From Peptococcaceae bacterium (GTDB lineage Bacteria; Bacillota; DSM-12270; Thermacetogeniales; Thermacetogeniaceae), in assembly GCA_003160265.1 (NCBI GenBank), contig PLQY01000024.1, forward strand, positions 12,765-25,735: a stretch of DNA of 12,971 bases. The letters are read 5' to 3'. The notes beneath the pieces are model-generated. The model worked only from the letters and a program-made list of their open reading frames with translations. It was not told where the DNA came from and did not search any database. Positions 55 to 8,918 of the stretch are shown piece by piece; the first letter of the stretch is position 1; each line of letters starts with the position of its first letter. The position numbers and the translations under genes are program-made.

Positions 55-849
55 ATGGCCAAGCCACTTGACAAGGCGGCTCTTGCTATCCGCCTCACTT
101 TGCTGGTATTGGCAGTAACGACAATCTATGCCTTGCTGACGATGGATGACCAGGGTATCAACATACTGAAAGCGATCCTCGATACTCTGAGTAATTTTAA
201 GACGATTTTTTTCCAGCCATACTCACAACACTTTACTGTGTGGCAGGCCTTCTGCGAAATAGTGATTACTTTGGGGCTGGCATTTCTGACCACTTTGTTC
301 GGCGGCGTGATCGCCCTCTTTCTGGGCCTTATGGCCGCGCAGAACTTGTCCCCTAAATGTCTCACAAATGTTATCAAAAGTTTTGTTGCTTTCATCCGGG
401 CAGTTCCAACGATCCTCTGGGTTTTAATTTTTGCGGTGGCTGCCGGGTTGGGGAGTACGGCGGTGGTAATCGGTCTGACTTTCCACTCGGTCGCCTATTT
501 GACCAAGGCATATTCCGAGTCTTTTGAAGACTTGGACCGGAGTGTGATTGAAGCGCTAATGGCCACGGGCGCCAATTGGTGGCAAATTGTTTTTCAGGCG
601 GTAATACCGTCCACGGCTACCTATCTGCTGTCCTGGACGTTCTTGAGGTTTGAAATAAACTTCGCCAATGCCGTTGCCATGGGCGCCGCCGCCGGAGCAG
701 CCGGGATCGGCTTTGACCTGTTCATGGCCGGCGAGTATTACTTCAACCTGCATGAGGTGGGCCTGATCACATATTTCATCTTGGCTTTTGCCATTGTCTT
801 GGAGATGCTGGCCACAAATATGAAGAGTAAGCTCCTGAAAAAGGCTTGA
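55..849 (+). CDS. phnE: phosphonate ABC transporter, permease protein PhnE
   Basis: This is a 264-residue integral membrane permease of the phosphonate importer, which normally works with a PhnC ATPase and a PhnD binding protein (neither is in the window). Hydrophobic segments lie near residues 10-28, 64-92, 109-131, 134-150, 180-196 and 236-252. The cytoplasmic EAA loop that docks on the ATPase is clear at 166-185 (EALMATGANWWQIVFQAVIP). Length matches the family (about 260-275). The start is ATG 55, the only usual start codon at the 5' end; the ribosome binding site is weak. The first half is clearly AT-richer than the rest of the operon (positions 181-240 are 35% GC by hand count). A 68-bp spacer separates it from phnG. 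Family assignment is secure; the exact substrate (phosphonate rather than phosphite) is inferred from the adjoining C-P lyase genes. Confidence 0.93.
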   Translation: MAKPLDKAALAIRLTLLVLAVTTIYALLTMDDQGINILKAILDTLSNFKTIFFQPYSQHFTVWQAFCEIVITLGLAFLTTLFGGVIALFLGLMAAQNLSPKCLTNVIKSFVAFIRAVPTILWVLIFAVAAGLGSTAVVIGLTFHSVAYLTKAYSESFEDLDRSVIEALMATGANWWQIVFQAVIPSTATYLLSWTFLRFEINFANAVAMGAAAGAAGIGFDLFMAGEYYFNLHEVGLITYFILAFAIVLEMLATNMKSKLLKKA

Positions 850-865
850 TGATCGGGATAATAGC

Positions 866-901
866 CGTATACTCATTACCCATCACTCGAAAAATTGTTG
901 A
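866..901 (+). repeat. heptamer repeat remnant in the phnE-phnG spacer
   Basis: The spacer contains two adjacent 7-mers, TCATTAC (873-879) and CCATCAC (880-886). They match the right arm of the larger heptamer element between phnK and phnL, where TCATTAC and CCAGCAC occur. The 10-mer AAATTGTTGA at 892-901 also recurs exactly at 4995-5004 in that element. I read this as a degraded copy of the same intergenic repeat, in rearranged order. The match is short, so chance is not excluded. Confidence 0.45.
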
Positions 902-917
902 CAAGGAGATGAAGGCA

Positions 918-1334
918 GTGGAACCACAGGAGATTCTGGCCGAGGGCAGGTTGGATGTATGGCAGCAGTTAACCGCTGCGATCGAAGTCAGGCATAATGT
1001 GAAGACAGTCAAGGCGCCGGAGACCTGCCTGGCGATGATGCAGGCGGTGGATAGCGTGGGAGAGACCCCTTTCTACCTGGGCGAGGTGCTGATGTGCGAA
1101 GCGGCTGTCAGGGTCGATGGGGTGATCGGTTACGGTTTTGCCCTGGAGGATGATCCAGAACGGGCCTGGTGCCTGGCGGTGCTTGATGCCGCCCTGGCCG
1201 CCGGACTGCCTGAAGGGCGGGAGATCAGGGCGGCCATCGATGGCGAGGGAAGGCAGTTGCTGGAGGAACGCCGCCTGGTGCAGGATCTGGTGGCCGGCAC
1301 CATGGTGCGTTTCGCAGTGATGGAGGGTCAGTGA
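918..1334 (+). CDS. phnG: C-P lyase core subunit PhnG
   Basis: PhnG is a small subunit of the C-P lyase core complex (PhnG2H2I2J2). With PhnI, PhnH and PhnL it supports transfer of the phosphonate to the C1 of ribose of ATP, releasing adenine. The 138-residue product aligns over its length with E. coli PhnG (150 aa): the ETCLAMMQAVDSVGETPFYL stretch, then CEAAVRVDGVIGYGF and the ALxDAALA helix, ending in a conserved TMVRF. I chose GTG 918 because AAGGAG at 903-908 is 9 nt upstream. ATG 909 in the same frame directly abuts that site, and ATG 846 would overlap phnE and add residues with no family match. Its stop overlaps the start of phnH by one base (TGATG). Confidence 0.92.
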   Translation: MEPQEILAEGRLDVWQQLTAAIEVRHNVKTVKAPETCLAMMQAVDSVGETPFYLGEVLMCEAAVRVDGVIGYGFALEDDPERAWCLAVLDAALAAGLPEGREIRAAIDGEGRQLLEERRLVQDLVAGTMVRFAVMEGQ

Positions 1335-1939
1335 TGGGCACAAATCTGGAATCTAATTTTGATCAGGTGTTCACGTCGCAGCAGATCTACCGCCTGCTGC
1401 TGGATGCCATGGCCCGCCCCGGCAAGATCGTGACGCTGGCCAGGCTGGAGATCGATCCCCCCGAGGGGCTCTCCTGGTCGATCGCCGGCCTGGCTTTCAC
1501 CCTGCTCGACCAGGAAACAACCTTCGCCGCGCTCCCGGACCATGAGTCCTGGGGCCACTACCTGTGTCTGAACACAGGCAGCCGGCAAGCAGCGGTATCT
1601 GAGGCGGAGTTCATCATTATTGACGGCAGGGTTGACCTGCCGGAGCTCCTGGTAGTCAACCGGGGTGATCTGCTCTTTCCTGACCGGGGGGCGACCCTGA
1701 TGGTCATGGTGTCGTCGGTCGGCGGTGATGGTGCTGACAACAGGCTGACCCTGCAGGGACCCGGTATACCCGGCCAGGTGAGCCTGACTTTAGGCGGCCT
1801 GTGCCCGGGCAACCTGGAGCGGGTGCAGACCCTGAACAGGGAGTTTCCCCTGGGAGTTGACCTGATGATCAGCGATAACCGTGGCGCTCTGGTCTGCATC
1901 CCCCGCTCCAGCGCCATCACAGCGGAGGTGAATGGCTGA
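1334..1939 (+). CDS. phnH: C-P lyase core subunit PhnH
   Basis: PhnH is a structural subunit of the C-P lyase core complex, needed for making alpha-D-ribose 1-phosphonate 5-triphosphate; it has no known active site of its own. The 201-residue protein compares with 194 in E. coli. Family landmarks are the N-terminal QxxYRLLLDAMARPGKI segment, the RGATLMVMVSSVGG strand, LTLQGPGIPG, and the C-terminal FPLGVDLMISDNRGALVCIP block. The start is ATG 1334, in a TGATG overlap with phnG and with GGAGGG at 1322-1327, 6 nt upstream. GTG 1331 in frame is a less well placed alternative. The stop overlaps phnI in the same way, so the three genes are probably translationally coupled. Confidence 0.95.
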   Translation: MGTNLESNFDQVFTSQQIYRLLLDAMARPGKIVTLARLEIDPPEGLSWSIAGLAFTLLDQETTFAALPDHESWGHYLCLNTGSRQAAVSEAEFIIIDGRVDLPELLVVNRGDLLFPDRGATLMVMVSSVGGDGADNRLTLQGPGIPGQVSLTLGGLCPGNLERVQTLNREFPLGVDLMISDNRGALVCIPRSSAITAEVNG

Positions 1940-3063
1940 TGGGATACGTGGCAGTAGCCGGCGGTGAAGAGGCGATCACCAACGCCGAGGCGTTAGTGGC
2001 TTTCTACAGGCTGAAGGGGGGATCGACGCCCGTCCAGGTGCGCCAGATCCGGGAACAGATGCGGCTGGCGGTTGACAAAGTGATGAGCGAGGGCTCTCTG
2101 TATGCCCCCGGCATCGCTGCCCTGGCCCTCAAACAGGCGGAGGGGGATGGGATCGAGGCCTCCTTTATCGTTCGGGCCTACCGGGCGACGCAACCGCGGC
2201 GCTACGTCTCGCTGCCTGTCGACACCCGGCAGATGAGGGTCATCAGGCGCATCAGCGGCGCCTTTCAGGACGTGCCCGGCGGTCAAGTCCTGGGTCCGAC
2301 CAGGGATTACACCCAGAGACTGGTGGACTTCGCGCTGCTTGGGGAGACCCCGGAACTCGCGGCCGGCTTTTTTAAGAAGATCGGTGTCCAGACGTCTAGA
2401 TCTGCATTGCCGGACACCTTTCCCAAGGTCATCGACCTGCTGCGCCGCGAAGGTTTGATGGCGGAGCCCGGCGATCGGGACCGGGCACTGTCCGATATCA
2501 CCCGGGAGGCTATCTCCTTTCCCTGCAACCGATCGGCCAAACTGCAATCCCTCGCCCGGGGCGAGACCGGGGTGATGATGGCGCTAGCCTATAGCTCTAT
2601 GCGCGGCTTCGGAGACATCCATCCCTACCTCGGCGAACTGCGGGTGGGCACGGTACCGCTCTTCATCAACCACCGGGCCAAGAAACACCCGGTGTACCTC
2701 GGGCCGGTGCTGGTGACCGAAGCGGAGATCATTTCCGGACAGTACGAGGATGACCAGGGCATACCGAAACTGACCCTGGGCTATGGGCTGTGTTTCGGCC
2801 ACAACGAGCTGAAGGCGATCGCCATGGGGGTGCTCGACCGTACCATGCAGAGCCAGGCCCCCCAGAGGGCCCCGGCGGAGGACGAGGAGTTCGTCCTGTA
2901 TCATATCGATGGCATCGAGTCCTCGGGCTTTTCAGCCCATTGGAAGCTGCCCCATTACGTGACCTTCCAATCTACCCTGGACCGCCTGCGCCGGACTCAA
3001 AAACTGAAAGAGGAGGCGGATACTCTTGGGCGTGAACCAGAACCGGAAACACCGGGGCTATAA
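1939..3063 (+). CDS. phnI: C-P lyase core subunit PhnI (nucleosidase)
   Basis: PhnI is the catalytic nucleosidase of the pathway. In the presence of PhnG, H and L it replaces adenine of ATP with a phosphonate to give ribose 1-phosphonate 5-triphosphate. The protein is 374 residues against 354 in E. coli. Conserved landmarks include the N-terminal GYVAVAGGEEAI, ALALKQAEGD, QVLGPTRDYTQRLVDFALL, FPCNRSAKLQSLARGETG, LTLGYGLCFGHNELKAIAMG, and near the C-terminus DEEFVLYHIDGIESSGFSAH followed by WKLPHYVTFQ. The start is ATG 1939 in a TGATG overlap, with GGAGGTG at 1924-1930. The last 38 bases overlap phnJ. The small excess in length lies at the C-terminus, which is charged and poorly conserved. Confidence 0.96.
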   Translation: MGYVAVAGGEEAITNAEALVAFYRLKGGSTPVQVRQIREQMRLAVDKVMSEGSLYAPGIAALALKQAEGDGIEASFIVRAYRATQPRRYVSLPVDTRQMRVIRRISGAFQDVPGGQVLGPTRDYTQRLVDFALLGETPELAAGFFKKIGVQTSRSALPDTFPKVIDLLRREGLMAEPGDRDRALSDITREAISFPCNRSAKLQSLARGETGVMMALAYSSMRGFGDIHPYLGELRVGTVPLFINHRAKKHPVYLGPVLVTEAEIISGQYEDDQGIPKLTLGYGLCFGHNELKAIAMGVLDRTMQSQAPQRAPAEDEEFVLYHIDGIESSGFSAHWKLPHYVTFQSTLDRLRRTQKLKEEADTLGREPEPETPGL

Positions 3064-4054
3064 CTTTGCTTTTCTGGACGAGAACACCAAGCGGGAAATC
3101 CGGCGCAAGCTGCTCAAGGCGGTCGCCATTCCCGGCTACCAGGTGCCCTTCGCCTCACCGGAACTGCCCATTGCCCGTGGTTGGGGCACCGGAGGTTTAC
3201 AGATCACCATGGCCATCATCGGCCCCGGGGATGTCTTGAAAGTGATCGATCAGGGCTGCGACGGCAGCGTCAATGCGGTCAACATCCGTAAACTGCTGGT
3301 TAAGACCACCGGTGTGGCCACTACCTTCGACACCAACGCTGCCAGTATCATCCAGACCAGGCACCGGATCCCTGAGGAGGCGATGCGCCAGGACCAGATC
3401 CTGGTGCTGCAGGTGCCGATCCCAGAGCCGCTGCGCTATGTTGAGGCCAGCGAGGCGAAGACCCGGGAGATGCACGGGGAGATGGACTACAGCCGGATGT
3501 GGGTCTACCTCTACGAGAACATCGTGCAGTACGGAGAGATCACCATCGGGGCGCGCTACCCCTCATTGGTCAACCGGCGCTACCTGATCGATCCCTCGCC
3601 GATCCCGCGCTGGGATGTGCCCAAACTAAACCAGGCGGAGACGCTGTATCTCTTCGGGGCAGGCAGGGAGAAGAGAATCTACGCCGTACCGCCGCACACA
3701 CTGGCCGAGCCTCTGGAATTCGAGGACTTCCGCTTTCGGGTGGAGGATTTCACGGGGCGCTCCTGTATTCGCTGCGGCGCCACTGATACCTACATGAACG
3801 AGATGTACGATAGCTCCAGCGGCCGGAAGCTGTTTGTCTGTTCGGACAGCGGCTACTGTGACCGGCGTCGGGAACAGTCGGTCACGCAAAACTTGGCTTG
3901 CGCCGAGCCGACGGGGCACCCTCTGGGTCGGGTACCCCCGAAGGCGGAAGCCTTGGTTGCGCCGATCCAGGAACGTAGTCGCTCTTATCCTACCGCTTCA
4001 AAAGAAGCGGGGGCATTAGAGCAAGTAGTTATCGAGGGAAAGGAGGCCCGGTGA
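3026..4054 (+). CDS. phnJ: C-P lyase radical-SAM catalytic subunit PhnJ
   Basis: PhnJ cleaves the C-P bond of ribose 1-phosphonate 5-phosphate by S-adenosylmethionine radical chemistry. It yields an alkane (methane from methylphosphonate) and 5-phosphoribosyl 1,2-cyclic phosphate. Key residues of the E. coli enzyme are present: the glycyl-radical glycine is Gly37 (AIPGYQVPF), and the cysteines correspond to Cys247, Cys250, Cys272 and Cys278 (CIRC, VCSD, GYC), three for the iron-sulfur cluster and the last for the thiyl radical. The start is probably TTG 3026, 9 nt after AGGAGG at 3011-3016 and inside phnI; GTG 3032 is less well spaced. The protein is 342 residues against 281 in E. coli. The excess is a 64-residue tail after Cys278 (9 residues in E. 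coli), rich in Ala, Glu, Arg and Pro, with no recognised domain and a perfect hairpin in its DNA. Confidence 0.96.
   Translation: MGVNQNRKHRGYNFAFLDENTKREIRRKLLKAVAIPGYQVPFASPELPIARGWGTGGLQITMAIIGPGDVLKVIDQGCDGSVNAVNIRKLLVKTTGVATTFDTNAASIIQTRHRIPEEAMRQDQILVLQVPIPEPLRYVEASEAKTREMHGEMDYSRMWVYLYENIVQYGEITIGARYPSLVNRRYLIDPSPIPRWDVPKLNQAETLYLFGAGREKRIYAVPPHTLAEPLEFEDFRFRVEDFTGRSCIRCGATDTYMNEMYDSSSGRKLFVCSDSGYCDRRREQSVTQNLACAEPTGHPLGRVPPKAEALVAPIQERSRSYPTASKEAGALEQVVIEGKEAR
3993..4010 (+). repeat. perfect inverted repeat inside the phnJ 3' extension
   Basis: CCGCTTC (3993-3999) and GAAGCGG (4004-4010) form a perfect 7-bp stem with an AAAA loop. It lies in the extra C-terminal coding segment of phnJ, 44 bases before phnK begins. 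There is no T-run after it, so it is not a typical intrinsic terminator. It could be an mRNA stability or attenuation structure between the phnJ and phnK messages, or part of an inserted repeat that created the extension. Confidence 0.5.
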
Positions 4055-4899
4055 TGGCTGCAACCGGAGAGGCGGTACTGGATGTGCGGGGCCTGACCAG
4101 GCTCTATGGGGCGGGTTGCCCGGACTGCCTGGTGCTAACAGGTCCTGATGCCGGGACCAACATCTGTCCACAGTGTCACGCCATCGTGGCCTGCAACAAC
4201 ATCAGCTTTGACCTGGAGCAGGGGGAGATCCTGGGGATCGTGGGGGAGAGCGGCTCCGGCAAGAGTACCCTGCTGCGCTGTATCTGTTTCGATGAAGAGG
4301 CCACGGCTGGAGAGTGCTATTTCGCGGCCTTCGGCACCGGCCGGGATGACGCCTTCTCCCAGACCGGCCAGGCCCGGCGCTATATCAGAAACCACCTGCT
4401 GGGGATCGTCTACCAGAACCCATTGATGGGGATCAAGCCCCATTTCACCGCCGGCGGCAATGTGGCAGAGAAACTGTTGACGGCGGATGTGTACAATGTC
4501 TCCCTGATCAGGCAGCGGGCGGCCACCTTGTTGCAGCGGACCGAGGTGCCCCTGGCCCGGATGGACGACTTTCCGGCCAACTTCAGCGGTGGCATGCAGC
4601 AGCGGGTGCAGATCGCCAAGGCCCTTGCCAACAATCCTCCGGTGCTGCTGCTAGATGAGGTCTCTACCGGCCTGGACGTATCGGTGCAGGCCCGGGTGCT
4701 CGATCTGATCAAGGAGATCCAGCGTGACCTGGGGATTGCCATGATCGTGGTTTCCCACGACCTGGGCGTGATCAGGCTGTTGGCTGACCGCACCGGTGTG
4801 ATGCAGCACGGTCAGGTTATAGAGTTCGGGCTCACTGACCAGATCCTGGAAGATCCGCAGCACCGCTATACCCAGTTACTGGTACATTCAATGCTCTAA
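4054..4899 (+). CDS. phnK: C-P lyase ABC-type ATPase subunit PhnK, with a five-cysteine insertion
   Basis: PhnK is an ABC-type ATPase that docks on the PhnJ face of the C-P lyase core complex; it is cytoplasmic and not a transporter. The 281-residue protein has Walker A GESGSGKS (64-71), Q-loop Gln121, the signature SGGMQQR (178-184), Walker B LLLDE (198-202) and switch His235. The Walker B segment reads DEVSTGLD where DEPT is usual. Compared with E. coli PhnK (252 aa) there is an insertion at about residues 20-47 with Cys22, Cys25, Cys38, Cys41 and Cys47, a CxxC-x12-CxxC-x5-C pattern suggesting a bound metal, probably zinc. The start is ATG 4054 in a TGATG overlap with phnJ, 7 nt after AAGGAGG (4040-4046). 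A 169-bp spacer follows, the largest gap inside the operon. Confidence 0.93.
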   Translation: MAATGEAVLDVRGLTRLYGAGCPDCLVLTGPDAGTNICPQCHAIVACNNISFDLEQGEILGIVGESGSGKSTLLRCICFDEEATAGECYFAAFGTGRDDAFSQTGQARRYIRNHLLGIVYQNPLMGIKPHFTAGGNVAEKLLTADVYNVSLIRQRAATLLQRTEVPLARMDDFPANFSGGMQQRVQIAKALANNPPVLLLDEVSTGLDVSVQARVLDLIKEIQRDLGIAMIVVSHDLGVIRLLADRTGVMQHGQVIEFGLTDQILEDPQHRYTQLLVHSML

Positions 4900-5068: not shown

Positions 5069-5911
5069 ATGGGCAATGTCTTATCGGTAAGGCAGTTATC
5101 CAAGCATTTTATTTTGCACATCCTGGGTGGAAAGGTGATCGCCGGCTGCGAGGAGATCGGGTTTGACTTGAAGCAGGGGGAATTCCTGGGCCTGACCGGC
5201 CCCAGCGGGGCGGGCAAGTCCACCGTTCTCAAGTGTATCTACCGCACCTACCTGCCGACATCAGGACAGATGCTCTATACAGGCAAAGATGGCCGGCAGA
5301 TCGATCTGGCCTGCGCCCCGGAGCGGGAGATGATCCGGTTGCGGCGTCGGGAGATCGGTTATGTCAGCCAGTTCCTGAAGGTCATGCCCCGGGTGCCGGC
5401 TGTCGACGTTCTGGCCGGGGAGTTGCGTCAGAAGGGCTGGGAGATGGAGCGTGCCCGGCAGCGTGCCCGGGAGTTCTTGAAGATCATGGACATCAACCAG
5501 GCGCTCTGGGATGCCTATCCATCCACCTTCAGCGGCGGCGAGCAGCAGCGGATCAACCTCGCCCGGACGCTGATCACGGAGCCGCGCCTGCTGCTGTTGG
5601 ACGAACCGACCGCCTCCCTGGACATTGTCACGAGGCAGATCGTGATCCGGGTGCTCAAGGACTCGAAAGCTGCCGGGGCCACGATGATTGGTGTTTTCCA
5701 CGATCTGGATGTCATGGGGCGTCTGGTCGACCGGGTGTTCGGTATCGAGGCTGGCCGTTCCAGCACTCAATGCAGTCCGCCACAAGTCGCAACTGACTTG
5801 ACACCTGTTCCTGGACACTATTATGATTCTGCTTCTGTTGAGTGCGGCGCGGGTGCCAGTACTGACAGGCGTGGAAGCGGGAGGATCGCCTCCCGGGAGG
5901 ATACTCTATGA
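5069..5911 (+). CDS. phnL: C-P lyase ABC-type subunit PhnL, with a C-terminal extension
   Basis: PhnL is the second ABC-type ATPase of the C-P lyase system. It is required with PhnG, H and I for ribose triphosphate phosphonate formation and can pair with PhnK on the core complex. Motifs are Walker A GPSGAGKS (44-51), Q-loop Gln101, signature FSGGEQQR (154-161), Walker B LLLLDEP (174-180) and switch His211. The SQFLKVMPRVPA and DEPTASLD stretches are typical of PhnL. The start is ATG 5069, 5 nt after GAGGAGG (5057-5063). The protein is 280 residues against 226 in E. coli. Family similarity stops near residue 232, and residues 233-280 are an unmatched tail rich in Ser, Gly and Ala. The repeat-like 10-mer CCAGCACTCA falls at the junction. 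The stop overlaps phnM (ATGA). Confidence 0.94.
   Translation: MGNVLSVRQLSKHFILHILGGKVIAGCEEIGFDLKQGEFLGLTGPSGAGKSTVLKCIYRTYLPTSGQMLYTGKDGRQIDLACAPEREMIRLRRREIGYVSQFLKVMPRVPAVDVLAGELRQKGWEMERARQRAREFLKIMDINQALWDAYPSTFSGGEQQRINLARTLITEPRLLLLDEPTASLDIVTRQIVIRVLKDSKAAGATMIGVFHDLDVMGRLVDRVFGIEAGRSSTQCSPPQVATDLTPVPGHYYDSASVECGAGASTDRRGSGRIASREDTL
5879..5900 (+). promoter_or_regulatory. hairpin next to the phnM ribosome binding site
   Basis: GGGAGG (5879-5884), loop ATCG, and CCTCCC (5889-5894) form a perfect 6-bp stem. It is followed at once by a second GGGAGG (5895-5900), which is the ribosome binding site of phnM, 7 nt before ATG 5908. CCTCCC can therefore pair with the upstream copy or interfere with the binding site itself. 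The site lies within the end of phnL. A translational role is inferred. Confidence 0.45.
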
Positions 5912-7143
5912 AGCACTCGTTGCTGATCACCAACGGCCAGGTCGTGCTTCCGGACCGGGTGATCGTTCCGGGCGAGGTATTGATTGAGGATGGGGTCATC
6001 CTCTATGCAGGCAAGCAGATCGAGAAACACGGCAAGACTGCTCAAAACGTGCTGGACGCCAGGGGTTGCTACGTACTGCCCGGCCTGATCGATCTGCACA
6101 GTGATTCCATCGAGAAAGAACTGGAACCGCGTCCGGGGGCGATCTTTGGTGCGGAAATGGCTTTCAGTGAGCTTGAGAAGAGGCTTGTCGGCAATGGCAT
6201 CACCACCATGTACCACTCCTTCTCCTTTGCCGGGGCCGAGTGGGGCATTCGCAACGATGGGCATGCTGCTGACTGCATGCGCAAGATCGTGGACATGTCC
6301 AGCAAGACCTGGCTAATCCGCAACCGTGTGCACCTGCGGTTCGAAATTACCAATGTCCAGGGAGTGGAGACGGTCAGATCCCTGATCGATGACGGCATGG
6401 TCGACCTGCTCTCCTTTATGGACCACACTCCGGGTCAGGGACAGTACCAGACCGCCGAGGATTACCGGCGCTACATGGAAAAGACCTACCATCTTCCTTT
6501 GAGCCGCATTGAAGAGAACATCGCCGCCAGGGAACAGGGACGGTCACAGGCATCCGCCAGTATAGAGCAACTCAGCGCCACCGCCAGGCATAATGAGGTT
6601 CCCATGGCCTCGCACGACGACGATAATATCGAGCGGTTGGCCTCTTACAGGAACTGCGGCGTCACCATCCACGAGTTTCCGATCAACCTGGCTGTTGCCG
6701 AAGCTGGCCGCTGGATGGGAAGCCACGTCTGCGTCGGAGCTCCGAACGTGGTGCGGGACGGATCGACAGGCAAAGGGATGCGGGCCATGGAAGCCATCAC
6801 CGCCGGGGCAGCCAATATCATCTGCTCTGACTACCACCCTCCGGCTATGCTGCAGGCAGTTTTCAAGCTGTCGAGGGAAGCGATGACCCTGTCCCGGGCA
6901 GTATGCCTGGCGTCTCTGGAACCAGCCCGGGCAATAGGCCTGAAGCTCCTGGGAAGCCTGGAGCCGGGACATCTCGGGGATGCCATCGTGGTGAGCCTGC
7001 GGGGAGGCATTCCGGTAGTTACCGATGCTGTGGTGGGAGGAGTGCAGGTCTACCGGGTCAGCTACTGCAATCAGGTGAAGAGTGTTCATGAACCTGCCGG
7101 GTGGCGCCTTCCCGCTGTCAGATCGCAGCAGGTGCTGCGCTAA
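5908..7143 (+). CDS. phnM: ribose 1-phosphonate 5-triphosphate diphosphatase PhnM
   Basis: PhnM is a metal-dependent amidohydrolase-superfamily enzyme that removes pyrophosphate from alpha-D-ribose 1-phosphonate 5-triphosphate, giving the PhnJ substrate. The 411-residue protein (378 in E. coli) shows LIDLHSDSIEKELEPRPG (60-77, metal-binding region with His64 and Asp66), MDHTPGQGQY (171-180), ASHDDDN (234-240), HEFPINLAVAE (255-265), GAPNVVRDGSTGKGM (277-291) and CSDYHPPAML (306-315). The start is ATG 5908, overlapping the phnL stop by 4 bases, with GGGAGG 7 nt upstream. The C-terminal 30 residues or so exceed the E. coli protein and carry no recognised motif. An 80-base gap without a terminator follows, so the next gene is probably cotranscribed. 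Confidence 0.95.
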   Translation: MKHSLLITNGQVVLPDRVIVPGEVLIEDGVILYAGKQIEKHGKTAQNVLDARGCYVLPGLIDLHSDSIEKELEPRPGAIFGAEMAFSELEKRLVGNGITTMYHSFSFAGAEWGIRNDGHAADCMRKIVDMSSKTWLIRNRVHLRFEITNVQGVETVRSLIDDGMVDLLSFMDHTPGQGQYQTAEDYRRYMEKTYHLPLSRIEENIAAREQGRSQASASIEQLSATARHNEVPMASHDDDNIERLASYRNCGVTIHEFPINLAVAEAGRWMGSHVCVGAPNVVRDGSTGKGMRAMEAITAGAANIICSDYHPPAMLQAVFKLSREAMTLSRAVCLASLEPARAIGLKLLGSLEPGHLGDAIVVSLRGGIPVVTDAVVGGVQVYRVSYCNQVKSVHEPAGWRLPAVRSQQVLR

Positions 7144-7223
7144 ACAGCGGTCAGGCGCTGCACCAGAGGCCGGGTTTCTTCGGTCAAGCTGTTAACCGGA
7201 TATGCATGGAGGGGGAGATTGGA

Positions 7224-8192
7224 TTGCAGGTGGCAGGGATCGCTATCAACGCTGACGCCGTCGGGCTGGACGGCAACCTCGATGTGCTGCGGGAGGAGTT
7301 GGATCACCACGCAGGGATCGGCTTTGCCTATGTAGAGATCGCTCCGCATGGGGCTGGCGTGATCCACGGTGGCGGCCTGCACCGGGAGCAGATGAAAAAA
7401 CTCCTGAAGGTGCTATCTGCCTATCCTTTCAGGTATGTGACGCACGGCCCGAATCCGCTGAATCTGATGGATCGGGAGCATCTGGAACTGGAGAAGCGCC
7501 TGTTTATGTCCAGCCTGCAGTTCGCAGGGGAGACCGGATCCGGGGTGATGGTCTACCACGCAGGGCGCTGGCTGCCCGAGGAGCAGTTCCAGTTGCCGGA
7601 TATTGGGATGCCGGAGCCGGATCAGCAAAAAGTTATGTGGGAACTGGAACGCACGCTGCTCCAGGAGATGGGCGTCTTGGCGGAGCAGTACGGGGTGACC
7701 ATTGCCGTGGAAAACGCCCGCCCCTATCTGGATGCCAGTCCGTATTGCTACGGCGAATTTCTGCAATCCCTGGCGGAGATGATCGTGCAGGTCAACCATC
7801 CCCGGGTGGGGATCACCCTGGACCTGGGACACGCCTTTCTGGCCTCCCGCCATCATGGCTACAATCTATTGGAGGGGGTGGATGCGGTGCGGCCATATAT
7901 CAGGCACATCCACCTGCACGACAACTATGGGCGTTGCTGCGCCTCCTATGAGAAGAAGCAGGGCGAACTGCTGGCCACCGGCCGGGGTGACTTACACCTG
8001 CCGATCGGCTGGGGAGAGGTGCCGGCCCGGGAAGTGTTTGCCCGCCTCCAGGACTACCGGGGCGTGGTTACCCTGGAAATCAGGCCACGCTACCGGGCCT
8101 TCTATGAGGAGGCTCTGACAAATGCCCGGGTTTTGTTTGCGGCGAAAGGCCTGGCAGAAGATCCCGGCGCGGCTAAGCAAAAAAAAGTTTGA
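7224..8192 (+). CDS. xylose isomerase/endonuclease IV-like TIM-barrel metalloenzyme
   Basis: This 322-residue protein belongs to the AP_endonuc_2 (sugar phosphate isomerase/epimerase-like) TIM-barrel family. The candidate metal ligands correspond in order and type to all nine of E. coli endonuclease IV: His74 (VTHGPN), His112 (YHAG), Glu163 (VEN), Asp200 and His203 (DLGH), His230 (HIH), Asp256 and His258 (GDLH) and Glu285 (LEIRP). Mononuclear sugar epimerases of this fold need only about four. It is the last gene of the phn operon and the window has no phnP, so opening of 5-phosphoribosyl 1,2-cyclic phosphate is a plausible role. A sugar isomerase or epimerase remains possible. I chose TTG 7224, which has GGAGG (7208-7212) 11 nt upstream; ATG 7206 would add six residues but lacks a site. 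The reading frame is open further upstream into phnM, without family similarity there. Confidence 0.85.
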   Translation: MQVAGIAINADAVGLDGNLDVLREELDHHAGIGFAYVEIAPHGAGVIHGGGLHREQMKKLLKVLSAYPFRYVTHGPNPLNLMDREHLELEKRLFMSSLQFAGETGSGVMVYHAGRWLPEEQFQLPDIGMPEPDQQKVMWELERTLLQEMGVLAEQYGVTIAVENARPYLDASPYCYGEFLQSLAEMIVQVNHPRVGITLDLGHAFLASRHHGYNLLEGVDAVRPYIRHIHLHDNYGRCCASYEKKQGELLATGRGDLHLPIGWGEVPAREVFARLQDYRGVVTLEIRPRYRAFYEEALTNARVLFAAKGLAEDPGAAKQKKV

Positions 8193-8230: not shown

Positions 8231-8253
8231 GGGAGGCGATAAACCTGGACACT

Positions 8254-8481
8254 GTGACTCTTTCATCAAAAGGCCAAATTGTGATTCCGAAAGTCTTACG
8301 CAGCCTGCTCAAACTGTCAGAAGGGGATAGACTCACAATAACGCTTCACCAGAACAGGTTGTTGTTAGAGCCTGTGGATGAGAAGAGACTTGCAAACTGG
8401 CGCTCGTGGGAGGGAGTGTTGAAAAATACTCACGCTCTTCAGGATCATGTTGCCGAGCATGCCGAAGAGGTTGACAAATGA
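8254..8481 (+). CDS. AbrB/SpoVT-fold antitoxin (VapB/MazE type)
   Basis: This short protein (75 residues from GTG 8254) has the swapped-hairpin DNA-binding signature TLSSKGQIVIPKVLR followed by LKLSEGDRLTITLHQNRLLLEPV. After it comes a charged helical tail (about residues 44-75) that would bind and inhibit the partner toxin. It should neutralise the PIN-domain toxin encoded next and, with it, repress the pair. The canonical start GTG 8254 lies 17 nt from the only good ribosome binding site (GGGGAGG, 8230-8236). An in-frame CTG at 8245 has ideal 8-nt spacing and would add the residues M-D-T, giving the N-terminus usual in this family (xxTVTLSSKGQ). The true start may therefore be 8245. The stop overlaps the toxin start by ATGA. 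Confidence 0.88.
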   Translation: MTLSSKGQIVIPKVLRSLLKLSEGDRLTITLHQNRLLLEPVDEKRLANWRSWEGVLKNTHALQDHVAEHAEEVDK

Positions 8482-8918
8482 AGCAAGCAGTTCTCGACGC
8501 CTACGCTATTCTGGCATGGATGCAACAGGAGCCTTGTGCCCCGGTTGTGAGCAACTTGTTTGCCCAGGCGGAACAGGAAGAAAATATTGAGCTTTTTCTT
8601 TCCTGTATCAATGCCGGCGAGGTCTACTACAGGCTTTATAAAACGGCTGGTTCAAGGGCAGCCAATGATTTCAAGGAAGCTCTCCTACAACACAAATTTC
8701 CACTAATACTCGTTACTGCCAGTAATACTCGGGTATGGCGCGCGTCTGGTCTAAAAGGGCAGTACCGGATCTCCTATGCAGATGCATTTGCAATAGAACT
8801 GGCGATTGATAAGGGAGGACAGCTGGTTACAGGTGACCCGGAAATTTTGGCTCTAGCAGCACAGGGCGTGGTTGATACCTGCGACCTGACGAGTACTGGA
8901 GATCAGGCAACAGAATGA
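8478..8918 (+). CDS. PIN-domain toxin, VapC-like ribonuclease
   Basis: The 146-residue protein is a PIN-domain ribonuclease, the toxin of the pair. The four acidic residues that hold the catalytic metal are visible: Asp7 (VLDAYAILAW), Glu48 (NAGEVYY), Asp102 (SYADAFA) and Asp120 (VTGDPEI). In the family, VapC toxins cut tRNA or rRNA and stop growth when the antitoxin is lost; which RNA this one cuts cannot be told from sequence. ATG 8478 overlaps the antitoxin stop (ATGA) and has GAAGAGG (8464-8470) 7 nt upstream. Length and motifs are complete, so it appears intact. Codon use is a little AT-richer than in the phn genes, consistent with a mobile module. Confidence 0.92.
   Translation: MKQAVLDAYAILAWMQQEPCAPVVSNLFAQAEQEENIELFLSCINAGEVYYRLYKTAGSRAANDFKEALLQHKFPLILVTASNTRVWRASGLKGQYRISYADAFAIELAIDKGGQLVTGDPEILALAAQGVVDTCDLTSTGDQATE

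Follow-up and report, generated by a model that had tools for sequence, protein, structure and literature searches.

The window, by which we mean the whole stretch of 12,971 nucleotides that was analysed, taken from a Peptococcaceae contig (PLQY01000024.1), carries a C-P lyase (phn) operon on its forward strand. It opens with phnE, encoding a phosphonate ABC permease (55..849; PF00528, and TIGR01097 at 184.9 bits, below the cut-off of 216.7), and continues with phnG (846..1334; PF06754, and TIGR03293 at 93.7 bits, above cut-off), phnH (1331..1939; PF05845, and TIGR03292 above cut-off), phnI (1939..3063; PF05861, 450.5 bits), phnJ, the C-P lyase itself (3026..4054; PF06007, 454.4 bits), phnK (4051..4899; top NCBIfam match TIGR02323, 216 bits, below cut-off), phnL (5069..5911; TIGR02324, 268 bits, above cut-off) and phnM, encoding the triphosphate diphosphatase (5908..7143; NF011990, 407.7 bits, above cut-off). 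Upstream of the window, the same contig has genes reading as phnD, phnC and another phnE, of which phnD and phnC were named from their reading frames, without a family scan. On the same strand, 80 bp after phnM, lies a gene for a TIM-barrel protein (7224..8192), which we propose to be the cyclic phosphodiesterase of the C-P lyase pathway on the basis of its family (PF01261), a predicted model with a pLDDT of 95 and its linkage to phn genes. A promoter/terminator scan, a weak method, found no terminator-like site on the forward strand between the two genes. The gene starts with TTG at 7224, preceded by GGAGGGGG, and translates to 322 residues and a stop; an alternative start, ATG at 7206, fits a database entry of 328 amino acids (P0002). 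PF01261 is the only Pfam family matched (111.9 bits versus a cut-off of 31.1), and relatives of the protein are named 'sugar phosphate isomerase/epimerase' in the databases. A short AbrB/MazE-like antitoxin frame, identified by eye, and a PIN-domain gene (PF01850) come next (8243-8918), likely forming a toxin-antitoxin pair, so the TIM-barrel gene is probably the end of the operon. A homologue of 482 amino acids (P0014), with 64% identity to the window protein, carries in addition a fused acetyltransferase domain that recalls PhnO (aminoalkylphosphonate N-acetyltransferase).

The preliminary description had read this last gene of the operon as encoding a TIM barrel with candidate residues at the nine metal-ligand positions of endonuclease IV (Nfo), and the reading stands: in a multiple alignment with E. 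coli endonuclease IV, the window genome's own Nfo and MJ1311, all nine positions match. With the aligned Nfo residues in brackets, and all on the forward strand, they are His74 (7443..7445; His69), His112 (7557..7559; His109), Glu163 (7710..7712; Glu145), Asp200-x-x-His203 (7821..7832; Asp179 and His182), His230 (7911..7913; His216), Asp256-x-His258 (7989..7997; Asp229 and His231) and Glu285 (8076..8078; Glu261). The spacing noted earlier for the DxxH and DxH pairs is likewise that of Nfo, as is the local spacing more widely (H-x5-N-L, D-x2-H and D-x-H-x3-G-x-G). In the same alignment, where such distant rows are somewhat doubtful, four of the nine ligands are missing in each of E. coli Hyi, UlaE and YcjR, and two in FrlC. 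Within the family, the nine are invariant across the 27 rows of a first alignment, window included; in an alignment of 61 rows, seven remain invariant and conservation of Asp200 and His203 is 90% or more; and the set is intact in 94 of 95 family proteins of at least 230 residues (92 of 93 before two rows were added), the sole exception, L078, being a cut-short open frame. Left out of the 93-row count, and of the tree described below, were L002 (which repeats the window's gene), L085, L086, L091 and L097 (duplicates of kept rows), L092 (added later) and pieces shorter than 230 residues (L140, L078 and L097). Judged from the aligned sequences, the agreement at the nine ligands is far above chance. 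When the predicted model is compared by whole fold, epimerases rank after MJ1311, and endonuclease IV is absent among the 50 structure matches listed. A Pfam search finds two PF01261 proteins in the window genome, which encodes a separate Nfo. A profile-profile comparison with a small Nfo alignment (probability 19%, first His off by one) was dropped; its second row was another ORF.

PhnJ releases 5-phosphoribosyl 1,2-cyclic phosphate (PRcP), which in E. coli is opened by PhnP, a protein unrelated to the TIM barrel. A scan of a collection of species genomes found 264 places encoding a relative, of which the best 80 were examined; these are the top scorers and are thus biased toward the window's own branch. 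Core phn genes are present at 69 of these best 80 loci (in fetched stretches of at most 10 kb on each side), and at 56 of the best 80 the family gene lies less than 200 bp from phnM, a strong and recurrent linkage of the kind whose lack would, by the preliminary description, have spoken against the proposal. At three further loci (L025, L039 and L050) a phnE-like gene stands just before the family gene in a stretch that has no core phn gene. Among the hosts are Peptococcaceae, Sporomusa and Paenibacillus, a large number of Desulfobacterota, members of the Nitrospirota and Omnitrophota, a lineage of Actinomycetota and, from the archaea, Methanoliparum. In seven Desulfotignum loci, fetched for carrying the family gene, the gene comes after phnM. 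One locus (L007, 6795-9984), with two phnM-like frames, one of them truncated, and with a hexapeptide acetyltransferase-like gene that precedes the family gene, looks as if two operon types had merged.

Two phylum samples, whose labels were inferred from named relatives, were scored for co-occurrence. Among 297 genomes of Desulfobacterota, the phylum of Desulfuromusa, phnJ is found in 21 and the family in 11, all 11 of which have phnJ (hypergeometric 1e-14, ignoring shared ancestry). Among 398 genomes of Bacillota, the phylum of the window, phnJ is found in 20, the family in 13 and both in 6 (hypergeometric 1e-5, again ignoring shared ancestry); the 7 of 13 family-positive Bacillota genomes without phnJ count against a role on PRcP. 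Each sample was centred on a genome picked as positive (G000 and G442), and without G442 the overlap in Desulfobacterota is 10 of 10. G207 was scored family-negative despite a weak match (E 1.2e-4); in G216 and G697 the family gene consists of two overlapping open-frame pieces, which were not joined, and both genomes were scored positive. Identical matches make G147 the same as G400, and G216 the same as G443.

Reference-protein searches of the stretches fetched from the 41 phnJ genomes of both samples divide these genomes by their candidate for the cyclic-phosphate step: the family is found in 17, a PHP protein in 7, DUF1045 in 4, PhnP together with PhnN in 1, and none recognised in 12, five of which are on short contigs (G109, G166, G153, G730 and G539). 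In one family-positive genome (G737) the phnJ contig alone was read and the family gene is on another contig. PHP, DUF1045 or PhnP thus occurs in the stretch read in none of the 17 family-positive phnJ genomes versus 12 of the 24 family-negative ones (Fisher 4e-4, or 5e-5 without the five short contigs, shared ancestry being ignored in both). Half of the family-negative operons therefore have a known or proposed PRcP enzyme, and the other 12, with no recognised enzyme in the stretch, imply that some operons manage otherwise. Five phnJ operons (L137, L142, L145, L087 and L093) have no recognised known or candidate cyclic-phosphate enzyme in the stretch read. Another phn operon, in which neither PhnP nor PHP was found (L088, 4664-6216), has inositol-monophosphatase and metallo-β-lactamase genes at its end; the metallo-β-lactamase is nearest to cyclic-nucleotide phosphodiesterases (130 bits versus a cut-off of 400) and is another candidate stand-in.

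The absence of phnP from the window, noted in the preliminary description, extends beyond it. Reference proteins for PhnP, PHP, DUF1045 and PhnN find no counterpart in the window or in the rest of its 41,478-bp contig, and no PhnP-like match at E<=0.001 is found in the window genome (G000, 84.7% complete), in its congener G108 (98%) or in G149 (99%). The PhnP model (TIGR03307) is over its cut-off in none of 49 family-positive genomes and in none of the 20 phnJ-positive Bacillota genomes, and passes in 1 of 14 control genomes, presumably E. coli. Matches to it at E<=0.001 occur in 39 of the 49 family genomes and in 11 of the 14 controls, and because weak matches are common in the controls too, only passes of the cut-off and complete absence were used. 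There is no PhnP-like match whatever in 10 of the 49 family genomes, and 16 of the 49 encode distant full-length PhnP-like proteins (82-133 bits versus a cut-off of 272), so the genome-wide absence of PhnP is firm only in the ten and in G000, G108 and G149. In the 80 fetched stretches, PhnP-like frames are found at two loci only (L024 and L033), both without core phn genes. PhnN, for its part, is over cut-off in none of 55 family-positive records (53 distinct genomes); 51 of the 55 have sub-threshold matches (20-67 bits), which are presumably guanylate kinases. DUF1045 is found in 1 of these 55 records, as against 4 of 4 genomes picked for having it.

The family gene and another candidate enzyme do meet in a few places. 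At five of seven Paenibacillaceae loci (L060, L069, L074, L079 and L082, not L058 or L083) it occurs together with a PHP gene, in two of these five in the order phnL, family gene, phnM, PHP; the one PHP protein scanned, that of L069, is nearest to the PRcP diphosphodiesterase model NF041661 (242 bits versus a cut-off of 500). At the contig edge, L007 shows a partial match to PHP (90 bits), and a Desulfobacula locus (L071) has the family gene together with DUF1045. The earlier proposal of the TIM barrel as a candidate replacement for PhnP is supported, with no phnP, PHP or DUF1045 gene elsewhere on the contig and with recurrent phn linkage, but the replacement is not clean at these seven loci; the pairing of TIM barrel and PHP in Paenibacillus is the main contrary fact, and the two enzymes there may be redundant or may split the two ester bonds between them. 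Seven Bacillota operons without the family gene (L095, L096 and L098-L102) have a PHP gene. In five of the seven a hexapeptide acetyltransferase-like gene stands between phnM and phnL, three (L098, L101 and L102) have an inositol-monophosphatase-like gene, and the PHP proteins of L101 and L102 have as their best model the phosphoribosyl 1,2-cyclic phosphate diphosphodiesterase (NF041661; 219 and 294 bits versus a cut-off of 500).

A parallel is found in haloarchaea, where a Natribaculum plasmid operon has a distinct TIM-barrel protein after phnM. A search finds this protein in 11 plasmid records, of which 8 were read: 7 of these have it after phnM, and in 3 of the 8 an overlapping gene for a HAD-family hydrolase follows it, while the eighth record (50% identical) has no phn genes in the stretch. 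A PF01261 protein stands at the end of the phnG-M operon in L106 (11938-13458), L124 (8019-8801), L125 (7986-8795), L126, L127, L128 and L129. The haloarchaeal protein resembles the window family only remotely (29 bits) and comes closer to CbiR (67 bits versus a cut-off of 105), and the same nine ligands are present in all three haloarchaeal proteins aligned. Two archaeal strains with phnGHIJKLM and without phnNOP are recorded in the available portion of a review (PMC10574752).

Relatives that are not linked to phn genes help to separate what is general in the family from what goes with the operon. In a tree built by a quick method and rooted at the midpoint, 12 of 16 unlinked rows cluster together (SH-aLRT 100), and three of these 12 (L031, L033 and L043) lie near a contig end and were counted as unlinked on a partial neighbourhood; of the remaining four, one is isolated and the other three make up a further small group within the linked rows. 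Linked and unlinked members share the metal ligands. Arg115, Glu119, Arg166 and Pro167 are fixed in all 77 phn-linked rows, and Tyr168, Gln246 and Arg287 are present in 76 of the 77; these positions vary in the 12-row unlinked group, where, for instance, Arg115 is Arg in 4 of 12. As far as conservation can tell, the residues fixed in the phn-linked set are natural candidates to hold the 5-phosphate and the ribose. Among eight unlinked loci read, two have an adjoining phosphate transporter (PHO4 and a PhoU-like protein at L121, 9400-11079; a Na/Pi cotransporter at L119, 6638-8263) and at five the relative adjoins ABC importer genes (L115, L118, L119, L120 and L121), which fits phosphate release by the wider family and suggests a phosphate-releasing role of the unlinked relatives on other substrates.

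Taken together, these observations favour, with a probability that we put at roughly 70%, the reading that the product of the 7224..8192 gene is the phosphodiesterase which the C-P lyase pathway uses in this lineage, opening PRcP in place of PhnP. The TIM barrel would bind three divalent metals through its nine His, Asp and Glu residues, in the manner of endonuclease IV, and would activate a water molecule to hydrolyse the cyclic phosphodiester of PRcP; the 5-phosphate might be clamped by Arg115, Arg166, Tyr168 and Arg287. As PhnN is missing as well, the product probably does not go on to PRPP, and may instead be dephosphorylated, by the same site or by another phosphatase, to phosphate and ribose 5-phosphate. 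For a single site that does both there are precedents in the PHP enzyme Elen0235 and in endonuclease IV, each of which acts on diesters and monoesters, and endonuclease IV has 3'-phosphatase activity. A bolder version, in which the TIM barrel cuts both esters of PRcP in turn, a large set of bacteria thereby taking C-P lyase through to ribose 5-phosphate and free phosphate without PhnN, PhnP or PRPP, and haloarchaea recruited a second branch of the superfamily for this step, with a HAD phosphatase as partner in some, is a tentative proposal to which we give clearly less than even odds.

Other roles can be imagined. The protein might be a phosphomonoesterase that acts on ribose 1,5- or 2,5-bisphosphate after an unrecognised cyclic phosphodiesterase, as could be read from the PHP genes at the five Paenibacillus loci, from the lack of PhnN over cut-off in the 55 records and from the 3'-phosphatase activity of endonuclease IV; we consider this unlikely, as no other known or proposed enzyme for opening PRcP appears on the window's contig or in the stretches of the 17 family-positive phnJ genomes, and as three of the seven family-negative PHP operons have the inositol-monophosphatase-like gene, which could do the monoester step. 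Hydrolysis of phosphodiesters imported through the phosphonate transporter, such as glycerophosphodiesters, instead of the PRcP step is a quite unlikely role: the ABC importers at five of the eight unlinked loci, two of them also with phosphate transporters, speak for it, as the wider family may act on imported phosphodiesters, but against it stand the closeness of the gene to phnM at 56 of the best 80 of 264 loci and the conserved residues that phn-linked members have of their own, and it would leave PRcP without an enzyme in the genomes that have no PhnP match. A sugar phosphate isomerase or epimerase working on a downstream ribose phosphate would agree with the fold ranking and the database names, and Glu163, Asp200, His230 and Glu285, the four ligands that make up the epimerase site, all belong to the nine; each of the four aligned E. 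coli isomerases and epimerases, however, is short of two to four of these nine, and the window protein matches no epimerase model at E<=0.001, which makes this role highly improbable. Ligand set and linkage lead us to reject it, together with the barely tenable notion of a DNA-repair endonuclease IV placed in the operon by chance, for which the nine common ligands speak, but which is at odds with the separate Nfo of the genome, with the lack of any Nfo model match at E<=0.001 and with a phn linkage that is not chance.

Opening of PRcP by the TIM barrel, the reading we prefer, would bear on operons that have been described as incomplete. Desulfotignum phosphitoxidans can grow with several phosphonates as its only source of phosphorus and has an 'atypical' cluster without PhnN and PhnP, according to the accessible text of PMC4046663; by name, that strain is absent among the 120 matches listed in a protein search. 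For its operon (PMC4046663) and for those of haloarchaea (PMC10574752), both without phnP and phnN, no stated opener of PRcP was found in the available text of these papers. The family supplies a candidate opener in a broad range of bacteria and a single archaeon, and for haloarchaea there is a related one. Among the matches listed in the open-licence literature, including PMC7733943, PMC10574752, PMC9426474, PMC11656708, PMC4046663 and PMC3840354, the text available reports no TIM-barrel, xylose-isomerase-like or endonuclease-IV-like protein in C-P lyase, and the passages at hand of a study on phosphonates in serpentinizing systems (PMC9426474) make no mention of phnP, phnN, an isomerase or an endonuclease. 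The preliminary description had counted the protein as a candidate third solution to the PRcP step, a ranking that has to be given up: RcsF/DUF1045, with a 2H fold, was already proposed as a PhnP analogue in operons without phnP, going by the available parts of PMC10574752 and PMC3840354, and a survey of 54 operons found PhnP in 27 and RcsF in 16 of those without phnP, as stated in the part of PMC10574752 at hand. With the PHP fold also reported for the step, the TIM barrel is about the fourth. If our reading is true, a metal-dependent TIM barrel joins the unrelated folds used for one reaction, the entry point of phosphonate phosphorus into metabolism is shifted, and the database names 'sugar phosphate isomerase/epimerase' are to be corrected.

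Among known systems, the ketose 3-epimerases and hydroxypyruvate isomerase have their fold in common with the window protein, but no epimerase or isomerase model matches it at E<=0.001. Endonuclease IV belongs to the same PF01261 superfamily and, by alignment, has the same nine ligands, which in Nfo form a trinuclear zinc site, but neither of its models (TIGR00587 and PRK01060) matches the protein at E<=0.001, and the gene stands in a phn operon. MJ1311 (PDB 3wqo), about 25% identical, aligns with the window protein at all nine ligands. CbiR, from the same superfamily, is described in the available text of PMC7733943 as a cobamide-remodelling small-molecule phosphodiesterase inhibited by EDTA, so the superfamily includes a metal-dependent enzyme of this kind. 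Its model, NF041277, is the sole NCBIfam match of the window protein and a weak one (27.5 bits versus a cut-off of 105), and the neighbours of the window gene are phn genes, with no cobamide genes beside it. The PHP cyclic phosphate dihydrolases (NF041661) are a different case, as the window protein has no PHP match. Elen0235, a PHP enzyme, hydrolyses both esters of a cyclic diester; its substrate is the product of C-P lyase. PhnP, with its metallo-β-lactamase fold, catalyses the very reaction proposed here, the opening of PRcP, but is unrelated in fold, has a model (TIGR03307) that does not match the window protein and is not found in the phn loci that carry the family gene. Where phnP is missing, PhnPP/Elen0235 (PHP fold) is reported, and RcsF/DUF1045 (2H fold) proposed, to take this step; both folds are likewise unrelated to the TIM barrel, which most probably adds one more unrelated enzyme for the step of PhnP.
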